64,000 nucleotides of DNA from Seonamhaeicola sp. S2-3. Its GTDB lineage: Bacteria > Bacteroidota > Bacteroidia > Flavobacteriales > Flavobacteriaceae. Where the stretch lies: the NCBI RefSeq assembly GCF_001971785.1, contig NZ_CP019389.1, positions 3,669,001 through 3,733,000 of the forward strand, given 5' to 3'. This document shows positions 21,114 through 34,275 of this stretch, one piece after another (the first letter of the stretch is position 1; each line of letters opens with the position of its first letter). A program made the position numbers and the translations under genes. Below the pieces are notes generated by a model. The model worked only from the letters and a program-made list of their open reading frames with translations, did no database searches and was not told the origin of the DNA.

Positions 21114-21506
21114 TTACTGACTTTGTCTAGCCTCAAATATTTTTAAATAAAGAAACGTACCCATTTTTCTGGCGCGTCGTTTCGCATTTTCGGCATAATC
21201 GCCTTCAAATAATTCTTCTATGGTTTGAAACCATAAGTTTAACCAAATACCAAAGTGTTTTTCTGTTATGGCATTATTATTGGCTTTATCAACTTTAACA
21301 TGAGTTTCTAATGGGTTTCCGTAGTATCTGGTTTTTAAAAATAAACTAGATTGCCAAAAATCTGTTAGGTTTTCAAGGTGCGCATCCCAATCTTTAATTG
21401 CATCATTAAAAAATGGACCTAAAACAGTATCTTTTCTAACTTTTTTATAGAATGATGATACTAATAAAAACACATCTTCTCTTGTTTTAATATCTGATTT
21501 TTGCAT
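21114..21506 (-). CDS. Group III truncated haemoglobin
   Basis: A 130-residue 2/2 haemoglobin. Seen: the FYxxV start region (LVSSFYKKV), LGPFFNDA, the motif NLTDFWQSSLFLKTRYYGNP typical of group III, and the proximal His in EKHFGIWLNLWFQTI. The C-terminus ends with RARKMGTFLYLKIFEARQSQ. Likely binds O2, NO or sulfide; in this family a redox or NO-detoxifying role is usual. It lies about 130 bp upstream of ccsBA on the same strand, with a separate promoter for ccsBA, so a haem-related link is only suggestive. Confidence 0.9.
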   Translation of the reverse strand: MQKSDIKTREDVFLLVSSFYKKVRKDTVLGPFFNDAIKDWDAHLENLTDFWQSSLFLKTRYYGNPLETHVKVDKANNNAITEKHFGIWLNLWFQTIEELFEGDYAENAKRRARKMGTFLYLKIFEARQSQ

Positions 21507-21565
21507 AGATACAAAGATACATTAATACACTTTTATTTACCATAATACTTACTTATTTTAGCAAT

Positions 21566-22324
21566 ATGATTTCAGTAACTATTCTTGGTGCCGGTAATGT
21601 GGCAACCCATTTATATAAAGCCTTTAAAAACGCTAATAACATTGTTGTAAATCAATGGTATAACAGAAACATTAAAGCTTTAAAAAGTTTTAAAGAAGCG
21701 GTTGAAATTACCGATGATTTAAACCAACTTAAAGATGCCAATATTTATATTATTGCTGTAAGTGATGATGCTATTGCTAATCTTTCTAAATTACTTCCGT
21801 TTGAAAACAAACTAGTTGTGCACACCTCTGGTAGTGTAAACATTCATGATTTAGACAAAAAAAATAAACGGGGTGTATTTTATCCGCTGCAAACGTTTAG
21901 TAAAAATGCAAATTTAGATTTCAGCAACATTCCTATTTGTATTGAAACTATTGATAAGGCAGACTACCATGTTTTAAAAGCACTAGCGCTTACCATTAGT
22001 AACACTGTTAAAAAAGTAAATAGCGACCAACGAAAAGTGTTGCATTTAGCTGCAGTTTTTGTAAATAACTTTACCAATCAATTATATCGTATTGGACATG
22101 AAATTACAGAAAGTGAAGGTGCAGAATTTGACTTATTAAAGCCTTTAATTTTAGAAACTGCTAAAAAAGTTCAAGATTTATCGCCGTATATGGCACAAAC
22201 AGGCCCTGCTAAACGCAATGACAAAAAAACTATTAATAAACACATAAAACTTTTAAAAAACGAACAACACAAGCTAATATATAACTTGTTAACCGAATCG
22301 ATACAAAAAACACATGGAAGATAA
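21566..22324 (+). CDS. Rossmann-fold DUF2520 protein (dehydrogenase-like)
   Basis: A 252-residue soluble protein with an N-terminal NAD(P)-binding site (ILGAGNVATHLYKAF at residues 6-20) and a C-terminal helical DUF2520 domain (VNSDQRKVLHLAAVFVNNFTNQLY, then ETAKKVQDLSPYMAQTGPAKRND). The arrangement resembles 6-phosphogluconate or ketopantoate reductase-type dehydrogenases, but the substrate is unknown. It overlaps the KdsC-like gene by 11 bp and is probably translationally coupled to it. Confidence 0.85.
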   Translation: MISVTILGAGNVATHLYKAFKNANNIVVNQWYNRNIKALKSFKEAVEITDDLNQLKDANIYIIAVSDDAIANLSKLLPFENKLVVHTSGSVNIHDLDKKNKRGVFYPLQTFSKNANLDFSNIPICIETIDKADYHVLKALALTISNTVKKVNSDQRKVLHLAAVFVNNFTNQLYRIGHEITESEGAEFDLLKPLILETAKKVQDLSPYMAQTGPAKRNDKKTINKHIKLLKNEQHKLIYNLLTESIQKTHGR

Positions 22325-30409: not shown

Positions 30410-32119
30410 ATGCAACTAAATTGGATAGATTGGATTGTTTTAGGCATCACACTATTAGCTATTGTATCCTATGGAACATGGCAAACAAGAGGTAGTAAAA
30501 ATGTAAAAGATTATTTAAGAGGCGGCAATAAATCAAAATGGTGGACTATTGGTTTATCGGTTATGGCAACACAAGCTAGTGCTATTACCTTTCTTTCAAC
30601 ACCAGGACAAGCTTTTAATGATGGTATGGGTTTTGTACAATTCTACTTTGGGTTGCCTATAGCTATGGTAGTAATTTGTATGGTATTTATCCCCTTATAC
30701 CACAGACTTAAAGTATATACAGCCTACGAGTTTTTAGAAAGAAGATTCGATTTAAAAACCAGAGCCCTCACAGCTATTTTATTTTTAATTCAACGTGGGT
30801 TAGCTGCGGGCATCACCATTTTTGCTCCTGCTATAATTCTATCGGTTGTATTAGGATGGGATTTATTAACTCTAAATATTGTTATTGGGTGTTTAGTAAT
30901 AATCTACACGGTTTCTGGCGGAACCCGAGCCGTAAACGTTACTCAAAAACATCAAATGGTAGTTATCTTTTTTGGTATGCTAACCGCCTTTTTCATTATT
31001 TTTAGTAAACTTCCAGAAGATATTACCTTCACAAAAGCATTAAGCATTGCTGGAGCTAGCGGTAAAATGGAAATCTTAGATTTCTCTTTCAGTTTAAATA
31101 ACAGATACACCTTTTGGAGCGGTATTATTGGCGGTACATTTTTAATGCTTTCTTATTTTGGAACCGACCAAAGTCAAGTGCAACGCTACCTATCTGGTAA
31201 ATCTGTAAAAGAAATGCAGTTAGGTCTCATTTTTAATGGTTTATTAAAAGTGCCCATGCAATTCTTTATTCTGTTGGTGGGTGTTATGGTATTTGTGTTT
31301 TACCAGTTTAATGAAGCTCCTGTTAATTTTAATCCCACTGCTACTGAAATGATTTTAAATTCTGATTATGCAGACGATTTTAAAGCTCTCCAAGAAGAAC
31401 AAAAAAGTATTTTTAATGATAAACAGAAAATTATACATTCTTTCATTAACAATACTCATGATAAAGCAGCTCAATATATAGCATTTGCTAATGAGGCTAA
31501 TGATGATATTAGAAACGAAGCTAAATTACTTATTGATAAAGTTGCTAAAGAAAACAATATAAAAGTTGAAAGCAACGATAAAGATTATGTGTTTATTCAT
31601 TTTATTTTAAATAACCTTCCTCGCGGACTAATAGGGTTATTATTAGCGGTTATTTTAAGTGCAGCCATGTCTAGTACTGCCAGTGAATTAAATGCATTAG
31701 GCTCTACCACAACCATAGATTTATACATTAGAAATAGTGGTGAAAAAACAGAAAAAGAAAAGGTTAAAGCATCGCGTTGGTTTACATTTATCTGGGGTAT
31801 TTTAGCCATTGGGGTTGCTTGTGTTGCTAATCTTGCCGAAAATTTAATTCAGCTTGTAAACATTATTGGCTCTATATTTTACGGTAATGTTTTGGGTATA
31901 TTTTTATTAGCATTCTTTTTTAAATTTGTAAAAGGCAATGCTGTATTTATAAGTGCCTTAATTACACAAGTAATTATCATTGCGCTTTATTTTTTAAATG
32001 AATATGAAATAATAAATTTGCCTTTTTTATGGCTCAATTTTGTGGGTTGTATTATTGTAATTGCCATAGCTTGTTTACTTCAATCGTTTAACTTAAACAA
32101 CAAAGAAATTGAAAAATAA
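30410..32119 (+). CDS. Sodium:solute symporter (SSS family)
   Basis: A 569-residue secondary transporter with about 14 hydrophobic helices. Family signs: GGNKSKWWTIGLSVMATQASAITFLSTPG near residues 38-66, IYTVSGGTRAVNVT, the TDQSQVQRYLSGKS signature near residues 252-265, and LSAAMSSTASELNALGS near residues 418-434. An insert of about 80 hydrophilic residues (315-400) lies in a loop, a common variant in Bacteroidota. Substrate is unknown; neighbours suggest a sugar or sugar derivative. It overlaps the Gfo/Idh/MocA gene by 11 bp. Confidence 0.9.
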   Translation: MQLNWIDWIVLGITLLAIVSYGTWQTRGSKNVKDYLRGGNKSKWWTIGLSVMATQASAITFLSTPGQAFNDGMGFVQFYFGLPIAMVVICMVFIPLYHRLKVYTAYEFLERRFDLKTRALTAILFLIQRGLAAGITIFAPAIILSVVLGWDLLTLNIVIGCLVIIYTVSGGTRAVNVTQKHQMVVIFFGMLTAFFIIFSKLPEDITFTKALSIAGASGKMEILDFSFSLNNRYTFWSGIIGGTFLMLSYFGTDQSQVQRYLSGKSVKEMQLGLIFNGLLKVPMQFFILLVGVMVFVFYQFNEAPVNFNPTATEMILNSDYADDFKALQEEQKSIFNDKQKIIHSFINNTHDKAAQYIAFANEANDDIRNEAKLLIDKVAKENNIKVESNDKDYVFIHFILNNLPRGLIGLLLAVILSAAMSSTASELNALGSTTTIDLYIRNSGEKTEKEKVKASRWFTFIWGILAIGVACVANLAENLIQLVNIIGSIFYGNVLGIFLLAFFFKFVKGNAVFISALITQVIIIALYFLNEYEIINLPFLWLNFVGCIIVIAIACLLQSFNLNNKEIEK

Positions 32120-33083
32120 GGTTATTAACTGGGGCATTATTGGCTGCGGAAATATTGCCAATAAATTTGCCAAAGATTTACTTACTATAGAAGATGCAAC
32201 GTTATACGCAGTTGCTTCTAGAACACAAGAAAAAGCAGATGCTTTTGCATATGAATATAATGCTAAAAAAGCCTATGCTAGCTATGAAGCATTGGTGAAA
32301 GATAATAATATAGATGCTGTTTATATAGCTACTCCACACGCACTTCATAAAGAAAACACTTTACTTTGTTTAGAACATGGTATAGCAGTTTTATGCGAAA
32401 AACCCTTTGCTATGAATAGCAATGAAGTGAATGAAATGATAGCTAAGGCTAAAGAAAAGAACGTGCTTTTAATGGAAGCGCTTTGGACCTATTTTTTACC
32501 GCATTACCAATATGTTTTAGATTTATTAAACAATAAAACTTACGGTGAAATTTTAAAACTTAAAGCCGATTTTGGTTTCTACAGAGCATTTAATAACAAT
32601 GCGCGCCTTTTTAATAAAAACCTTGGCGGCGGTAGTTTATTAGATATTGGTATTTACCCTATTTTTTCAGCATTATCAACTTTAGGTATGCCTAAAAATA
32701 TTAAAGCTGATGCTACTTATTTTGAAAATGGTGCCGACTCGTCATGCCGTATGACTTTTAATTACGAAAATGGTGCCACTGCATTGCTAAAAAGTACCTT
32801 AGTTGAAGATACCCCAACCGAAGCTACATTTTATTGCGAAAAAGGAACTATTAAAATTAATTCTATGTTTCATGCGCCTTCTACTGTAACTATAACTTTA
32901 AATGGAAAAGATGTTACTAAAGACTTTGGTTATAATACCATTGGCTATAACTACGAAACTATTCATTTTAATGAGTTACTAAGGCAAGGAAAGACCGAAA
33001 GTGATGTGATGACATTTGATTTTAGCAGAAACCTTATTAAACTACTTGATGATGTTAGAAACATTATTAATCTTCATTATTAA
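32109..33083 (+). CDS. Gfo/Idh/MocA family oxidoreductase
   Basis: NAD(P)-dependent sugar or inositol-type dehydrogenase of 324 residues. N-terminal Rossmann fold with GIIGCGNIANKFAKDL (residues 9-24). The signature CEKPFAMN is near residues 96-103, and the catalytic-type GGGSLLDIGIYP is near residues 173-184. The start is a TTG inside the symporter 3' end (11-bp overlap), indicating coupling. Together with PIG-L and the symporter this looks like a small sugar-utilisation operon. Confidence 0.88.
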   Translation: MKNKVINWGIIGCGNIANKFAKDLLTIEDATLYAVASRTQEKADAFAYEYNAKKAYASYEALVKDNNIDAVYIATPHALHKENTLLCLEHGIAVLCEKPFAMNSNEVNEMIAKAKEKNVLLMEALWTYFLPHYQYVLDLLNNKTYGEILKLKADFGFYRAFNNNARLFNKNLGGGSLLDIGIYPIFSALSTLGMPKNIKADATYFENGADSSCRMTFNYENGATALLKSTLVEDTPTEATFYCEKGTIKINSMFHAPSTVTITLNGKDVTKDFGYNTIGYNYETIHFNELLRQGKTESDVMTFDFSRNLIKLLDDVRNIINLHY

Positions 33084-33136: not shown

Positions 33137-33248
33137 AACGCCATGGAAAAGAATAAATATGTACCATCTACGGTAGTATTATTAAAAATAGCGAAGCTTT
33201 TTTAGAAAGTCTGTTGAAGAGATTTTCTTTTTAGATGATACTTACTAA
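33137..33248 (+). pseudogene. Remnant of an HTH (XRE-type) regulator
   Basis: NAMEKNKYVPSTVVLLKIAKLF from 33137 followed, after a frame change near 33203, by KSVEEIFFLDDTY and a TAA at 33246-33248. This matches the C-terminal half of short YozG-like Cro/C1-type regulators, in which the helix after the HTH reads xxEKxKYxPSLxLAxKIAxxF and then SVEEIF. The N-terminal half is missing and the frame is broken by one base, so it is a dead fragment. It lies 50 bp after the Gfo/Idh/MocA gene. Confidence 0.6.
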
Positions 33249-33275
33249 TATTTTAAAATACCGTTAGCAAACATG

Positions 33276-33363
33276 CCCGCGTTAGGGATTGCAGTGAAAA
33301 GCCCACAGTGAGGTACGAACGAGGACTTGTAACGTAAAGCCCGACCCGATAGGGTAACGCCCA
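33276..33363. other. GC-rich structured intergenic element
   Basis: About 88 bp much richer in G+C than its surroundings. GCGTTA at 33279-33284 pairs with TAACGC at 33355-33360. Inside are the hairpin ACCC-GATA-GGGT (33344-33355) and two copies of the AAAGCCC motif in direct orientation. It has no reading frame. I recall similar intergenic elements in other Flavobacteriaceae but cannot verify this. It could be a dispersed REP-like repeat or a structured RNA. The rest of 33084-33426 holds only the HTH remnant and a terminator. Confidence 0.5.
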
Positions 33364-33379
33364 AATTATTACAAAAAAA

Positions 33380-33402
33380 AGCGCAACGTTAAAAGTTGCG
33401 CT
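33380..33402 (-). terminator. Bidirectional hairpin terminator
   Basis: AGCGCAAC and GTTGCGCT form a perfect 8-bp stem with a 7-base loop. The A-run to the left gives a T-tract on the minus strand, so it serves the DUF2911 gene. Confidence 0.8.
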
Positions 33403-33426: not shown

Positions 33427-34275
33427 CTACAGCGCTCCCCATTCTTTTAGAGAGTCTTGATTCATTTTTATATAACCTTTATTACCTTCTTTTTCTGCTA
33501 ACTTTAAAGATGCTTTTGCTGCGGCAATGGCTCCTTTTTTATCTCCTGCCTTGGCATGAATTAAGGCTTGTTTTCTTAAAATCCAAAAACGAGGTTGGTC
33601 TTTAGTCATTTCTACAGCTTTATCAATCCATTCCATTGCTTTTTCAATGTTTTTGTTAGATTCTAGATAATAAGTTGCTGCTGCATAATAATCGTTAACA
33701 CTTGGTCCGCCCATTACCTCATTTATACTTGCCAAAACGCCCTCATCTGTAGGAACGGTAAATGGTACTGCTACATAGGTTTTTTCCCAAATGAATTCAA
33801 GGTGCCCGCCGTTATTGGTAATATTATTAATATCCATAGCAAAGGTTTCTACATTAAAAGGAACTGGATACGATTTTGCAGTGGTTTTTAAGGCTACTTT
33901 AGTTTCATCCCATTCTTTTGGTACCCCCCAGTTGTTGGTGTCTTTATAAAAATAAACCTCCCAAGACTCTTCTCCTGGTTTGGTAAATATAGCGTAACTA
34001 CCCGCTTTTAATGTTTGCCCATCTATGGTAGCATTAGTACTAAAGGTAATTATTGTATTTTTATTTGCACCTGTACGCCACAGTTCTCCGTAAGGTACTA
34101 AACCGCCAAATACTTTTCTTCCTTTTACTCCTGGTCTAGAATATTCAATAGTAATATCTGTTAAACCTACCTTTTGCTCTAATTTAGCCGTAGGACTAGG
34201 TTGTGGTGCTTTTACTTGAGCCTGAACCGAATACACGGTAACACATGTGATTAAAAGTAATAGTAATTTTTTCAT
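33427..34275 (-). CDS. DUF2911 domain protein with C-terminal TPR-like region
   Basis: A 282-residue exported protein: signal peptide to about residue 19 (ending VQAQ), then the DUF2911 domain (IEYSRPGVKGRKVFGGLVPYG, LWRTGANKNT, LKAGSYAIFTKPG). The C-terminal 90 residues resemble TPR helices (AATYYLESNKNIEKAMEWIDKAVEM). Function of DUF2911 is not known; location is periplasmic or outer membrane-facing. It is monocistronic and ends at a strong terminator. Confidence 0.83.
   Translation of the reverse strand: MKKLLLLLITCVTVYSVQAQVKAPQPSPTAKLEQKVGLTDITIEYSRPGVKGRKVFGGLVPYGELWRTGANKNTIITFSTNATIDGQTLKAGSYAIFTKPGEESWEVYFYKDTNNWGVPKEWDETKVALKTTAKSYPVPFNVETFAMDINNITNNGGHLEFIWEKTYVAVPFTVPTDEGVLASINEVMGGPSVNDYYAAATYYLESNKNIEKAMEWIDKAVEMTKDQPRFWILRKQALIHAKAGDKKGAIAAAKASLKLAEKEGNKGYIKMNQDSLKEWGAL

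Follow-up and report, generated by a model that had tools for sequence, protein, structure and literature searches.

The best-described relative of the element studied here is Flavo-1 RNA, which was first reported by Weinberg et al. in 2010 (available sections of PMC2864571) and is held by Rfam as RF01705 with the type 'Gene; sRNA'. By copy count it is listed as one of the commonest small-RNA families of bacteria, with no function given in the available text of PMC9029176, and in a F. psychrophilum transcriptome Flavo-1 hits were found irrespective of transcript strand (excerpts of PMC9723704). Short DNA repeats offer a second comparison. REP/RAYT sequences of the GTAG and CGTC families, as portrayed in the available part of PMC3733652, are short, palindromic, intergenic, multi-copy and often located 3' of genes, all of which our element shares; however, they are hairpins of 20-40 bp, whereas the element is an 84 nt three-way junction with no fixed GTAG or CGTC end tag across 185 copies, and many of its carriers have no Y1 transposase. 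With Frpo/ssi single-strand promoters (excerpts of PMC11541004) it shares a proposed form as folded single-stranded DNA (ssDNA) beside anti-restriction genes on some plasmids, but it differs in having dozens of chromosomal copies and no promoter boxes recognised by eye. It resembles MITEs in its dispersal and lack of coding capacity, although target duplications were not observed, and 3.2 Mb of DNA yielded no longer version carrying a transposase gene. The REP and MITE literature searched for these bacteria contained no title or abstract opening describing the element, and as most subscription journals lay outside this search, this absence is weak evidence.

The window, a 64,000-nucleotide stretch of the Seonamhaeicola sp. 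S2-3 chromosome, carries the element on the + strand at 33279-33362 (84 nt), with the core GCGTTA...TAACGCCC. It was matched at 33278-33364 with 104.8 bits by R1, a model built in this analysis from 18 copies including the window sequence itself, and at 33270-33350 with 33.1 bits by RF01705. The outer stem of the original prediction, here P1, is formed by GCGTTA (33279-33284) and TAACGC (33355-33360), its pairs being conserved except for the last (A-U), which is often A-G. Next comes P2 (33285-33342), the Flavo-1 hairpin, with GGG/CCC, conserved purine-rich internal loops and an apical GAGGTACGA, as delineated by the Rfam match, alignment and covariation. The predicted inner hairpin ACCC-GATA-GGGT was located at 33344-33355 and corresponds to P3, a side hairpin that varies among copies yet remains paired by alignment and covariation; T33355 is common to P3 and the 3' strand of P1. 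CCAAA (33361-33365) forms a conserved 3' edge, beyond which the information profile of 185 copies shows no conservation. Its base composition is as distinct as had been claimed, with a GC content of 0.54 against 0.22-0.39 in non-overlapping 100-base windows on either side. RNA folding of 33279-33362 gave the junction from the + strand and a different fold from the - strand, at an unexceptional folding energy (z -0.42).

The window copy matched all 76 positions of the RF01705 model (1-76), covering the full-length P2 hairpin with its internal loops, at E 2.3e-5 in 401 bases; the 33.1 bits do not reach the gathering score of 42, which eight other copies in the same genome pass. Judged by this similarity, the window element is a divergent Flavo-1. 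It has the P2 hairpin and the same internal-loop motifs over the 76 model positions in common with the Rfam family, but adds P1 and P3, whose pairing is absent from the Rfam model, and the family as found here also extends outside Bacteroidota. A MAFFT alignment of 18 copies, made without reference to structure, revealed this larger conserved unit, in which P1 encloses P2 and the variable P3; 97.2% of its 399 cells were paired. Since these sequences had been chosen for carrying the core, the pairing test was repeated on further sets. Among 96 loci-derived copies, 96.4% of 2120 cells were paired, with both-sided change in 22 of 23 pairs, and 54 viral-contig copies gave 93.2% of 995 cells and both-sided change in 17 of 23 pairs, both of these alignments being fitted to the model and therefore leaning towards structure. 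The paired percentages and covariation scores were reached by none of 500 shuffles in each of the three alignments, which is the outcome of the covariation analysis proposed with the original prediction. The last P1 pair was unpaired in 40 of 51 cases in the viral-copy alignment, frequently as A-G, and G-U cells numbered 37 against 21 A-C cells in an alignment leaning towards structure. Covariation thus supports a three-way junction of P1, P2 and P3, and would look alike for RNA and ssDNA.

Searching the element's own genome by blastn returned 22 matches, and the model search 51 copies at E<=0.001. Seven single-contig genomes held 51 (own), 58, 85, 29, 29, 17 and 23 copies, and at least one copy was present in 204 of 299 sampled family genomes and in 165 of 236 genera, so that a single copy without conservation, the outcome that would have spoken against the original prediction, is excluded. 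Scanning named genomes gave at least 119 stretches; among the matches listed, all but two titles name Bacteroidota, the two being MAGs, one from Treponema and one with the label Bifidobacterium, which may reflect contamination. Of the proposed 'dispersed repeat or non-coding RNA of Flavobacteriaceae', the dispersal and the kinship with an Rfam 'sRNA' family stand, whereas the confinement to Flavobacteriaceae does not, as the element also occurs in other Bacteroidota, on plasmids and on viral contigs.

At the window locus, the intergenic gap is flanked by an oxidoreductase-like gene on the + strand (32109-33083) and a gene on the - strand (33427-34275) that we take to be of DUF2911 type. A bidirectional terminator-like hairpin lies between these convergent genes at 33380-33402, outside the element. 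Some 30 bp upstream of the element, as predicted (33248 versus 33279), lies the relic of an XRE-type HTH gene on the + strand (33143-33248). Its first part (33143-33202) translates to MEKNKYVPSTVVLLKIAKLF and, after a frame break between 33202 and 33207, 33207-33248 encodes KSVEEIFFLDDTY followed by a stop codon, confirming the predicted frameshift; the fragment is N-terminally deleted as well. Two of the seven genus genomes (G001, G002) have an intact two-gene operon at the same intergenic site, encoding a small membrane protein and a complete HTH protein containing INAMEKNKYVPSTV...PVEEIFFLEDED. In the window genome nothing but the 3' half of the HTH gene is left, alongside the element, and the fragment is therefore a deletion relic. 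Its original label, 'YozG-like', is loose, since no NCBIfam model scored above its cut-off, and 'XRE-type HTH' is safer. The operon's small membrane protein likewise had no NCBIfam family match. In the remaining genus genomes this operon is absent or reduced (L079 versus L085, L087). The element is found at this locus in two of the seven genomes: G006 carries one of another sequence type at the same place and in the same orientation, without the HTH gene, and G003, G004 and G005 have neither HTH gene nor element.

We propose, giving it an even chance of being correct, that we are dealing with mobile DNA, namely a non-autonomous repeat without genes and a full-length Flavo-1 variant, which would act as folded sense-strand ssDNA moved by a trans-acting enzyme. 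Mobility is suggested by the patchy distribution and decay of copies, by their passage onto plasmids and phage-like contigs, and by the absence of gene signals. Single-stranded sense DNA is the favoured working form because the purine-rich internal loops could pair on the sense strand only and because ssDNA phages carry the element on their coding strand. A putative enzyme acting in trans would recognise the junction and the conserved internal loops of this folded strand, and would move or copy the element into gaps where it is tolerated, for the most part 3' of genes. Such recognition would keep the structure, and copies no longer recognised would decay. The window copy may have settled between the oxidoreductase gene and the terminator shared with the DUF2911-type gene, where the HTH/membrane-protein operon had been deleted.

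Orthologous sites bear on this proposal in both directions. At several loci, orthologous copies have the same orientation across genera, and their persistence could indicate a local function, which argues against mobility. Between xylB and xylA, 14 of 29 readable loci (30 fetched) contain the element or a decayed form of it (4 of the 14), always directly downstream of xylB and in antisense orientation to both genes (14/14), and the remaining 15 have just a 10-63 bp gap. One clade of 11 in the xylA tree (support 98/99) includes 10 carriers with three apical types, as assigned by eye, and two apical types occur within one genus (G062, G282), a pattern suggesting that the apical module was either replaced in place or brought in by re-insertion at one spot. 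In the own genome, the copies at 1146405 and 1723500, two unrelated old loci, match perfectly over 72 nt while their orthologues in G006 and G012 differ, a single case hinting at homogenisation between copies (concerted evolution). The relatives compared, which differ by 14-30% in DNA, showed neither a base-exact empty site nor a target duplication.

Regarding the mobilising enzyme, no Y1 transposase (PF01797) was found in the own genome. PF01797 was present in 93 of 204 carrier genomes as compared to 23 of 95 non-carriers (odds ratio 2.6, p 5e-4, uncorrected for kinship), a modest association, and was absent from 111 of the 204 carriers. We therefore rejected an origin from RAYTs, since many carriers, including the own genome, lack this transposase. 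The 3.2 Mb of fetched DNA contained no autonomous parent element with a transposase gene; the element halves lay 30-160 nt apart, and no copy was split by a gene.

Plasmids and viral contigs supply the transfer evidence, and also a second explanation. Plasmid matches came from 84 records, nearly all of them from Bacteroidales, and 81 of the 84 cover at least 80% of the query; the element in Moraxella ovis pMOV1 is complete and has 80 nt inserted at its apex (E 8.7e-12). Plasmid copies lie beside opposite-strand genes for ArdC (L055, L056) or JAB-domain proteins (L241, L242, L243). An ArdC, JAB/RadC-type or anti-restriction gene recurs on the 5' side and opposite strand at the plasmid and phage copies L055, L056, L241, L242, L243, L256 and L429. 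For viral contigs, a 5'-half pattern with a longer tail found 2 stretches and was replaced by a shorter one; 54 matches were obtained in 80 loci, from low- and high-GC genomes, and the 'phages' collection gave no element match. L277 is a microvirus-like genome with Rep (phrog_942), capsid (phrog_514) and pilot protein genes, and L270 and L272 are filamentous-phage-like; each time the element is on the strand of the Rep and virion or assembly genes. When L272 was compared with named phages by tblastn, Acinetobacter phage M02 had the highest identity among the 15 matches listed (47% over 53% of the query), and for the microvirus and one inovirus the searches brought up no relatives apart from the genomes themselves.

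Of the 49 viral copies examined (54 minus 5 duplicates or weak matches), 13 lie just after a TerL gene in one orientation (L256, L262, L265, L268, L273, L276, L430, L442, L450, L465, L473, L481 and L482). TerL was named from phrog_2 hits (L256, L276), one sub-threshold Pfam hit and mutual similarity, and a PDB search with the TerL profile gave no match. Only 2 of 80 TerL relatives had the element, both already in the set, and a conserved function beside the terminase or packaging site was thus rejected in favour of sporadic insertion. Copies adjacent to TerL show a directional insertion preference.

The second explanation, to which the plasmid and ssDNA-phage copies give rise, is a portable single-strand initiation site, similar to Frpo/ssi or a complementary-strand origin. 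The sense strand, when single-stranded, would fold and allow host RNA polymerase or primase to initiate on it; this would benefit conjugative plasmids and ssDNA phages, and the copies on chromosomes would be relics that had settled or integrated there. The complementary-strand origin of phiX174 and G4 directly follows the capsid gene, and the copy in L277 is comparably placed, between capsid and pilot gene. The strand shared with Rep and virion or assembly genes in L270, L272 and L277 agrees with this explanation, as do the opposite-strand ArdC and JAB neighbours, the layout that a leading-region promoter should show, provided that transfer involves the sense strand. We nevertheless consider it unlikely: it leaves at least 50 chromosomal copies per genome unaccounted for, no -33/-7 box was recognised by eye in the stem, the antirestriction gene of pMOV1 is 3' rather than 5' of the element, and no copy is present in L567, a related inovirus whose Zot-family protein is 52% identical. 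Nor is there a replication-strand bias as a general trait: the sense strand was opposite the leading strand in 24-25 of 30 copies in the own genome (a post hoc count with ori and ter taken from GC skew), but the count was 68 of 136 in six further genomes (136 listed of 241 copies). In the own genome, some 1.4 Mb separate dnaA (21465-21950) from the minimum of the GC skew (1.32-1.50 Mb), placing the presumed origin far from dnaA.

A small RNA acting in trans, or an RNA element acting in cis, as the Rfam classification implies, would account for the strong covariation, for a junction formed by the sense strand alone and for the conserved position at some loci. The surroundings of the copies make it distinctly improbable. 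Edges are sharp in 185 copies, conservation running over about 84 nt from 2-3 nt before CGTTA (TG-CGTTA) to 4 nt after ACGCC (ACGCC-CAAA), and outside them no conserved promoter-like or T-run/terminator-like signal was found; a 5' GCAA...TTGC hairpin was dropped, its motif occurring in 20 copies versus 16 in a control stretch. Of 90 copies examined (from 96, leaving out plasmid, duplicate and partial rows), 87 were intergenic. The copies were antisense to both flanking genes in 28 of 85 cases, as well as throughout xylBA, where decay and loss also argue against a small RNA, and the strandless transcriptome hits mentioned above count against it further. The neighbouring genes were arranged in tandem in 54 cases, convergently in 25 and divergently in 6, as compared to 52.7, 11.7 and 20.6 expected from intergenic length (p 2.6e-6; gene calls crude and ORF-based); divergent (promoter) regions are avoided and convergent ones favoured. 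Such an excess close to the 3' ends of genes, with few copies upstream of divergent ones, could also be that of a 3'-end or terminator element shielding mRNA ends or ending transcription, which is very improbable as no T-run follows the element, the window has a separate terminator hairpin and, at xylBA, the copies lie within a gene pair that resembles an operon.

Returning to the mobile repeat, a broader claim, which we put forward tentatively and hold to be somewhat doubtful, is that Flavo-1 as a whole is a class of mobile elements and not a small-RNA family: a gene-less junction of ~84 nt whose folded sense strand would serve as an ssDNA initiation or mobilisation site, common to chromosomes, conjugative plasmids, and tailed and ssDNA phages of several phyla, with the apical module exchanged in place. 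If the element is indeed mobile DNA, the Flavo-1 small-RNA count and many genome annotations would be wrong, and Bacteroidota would have an abundant repeat class linking chromosomes, plasmids and phages.
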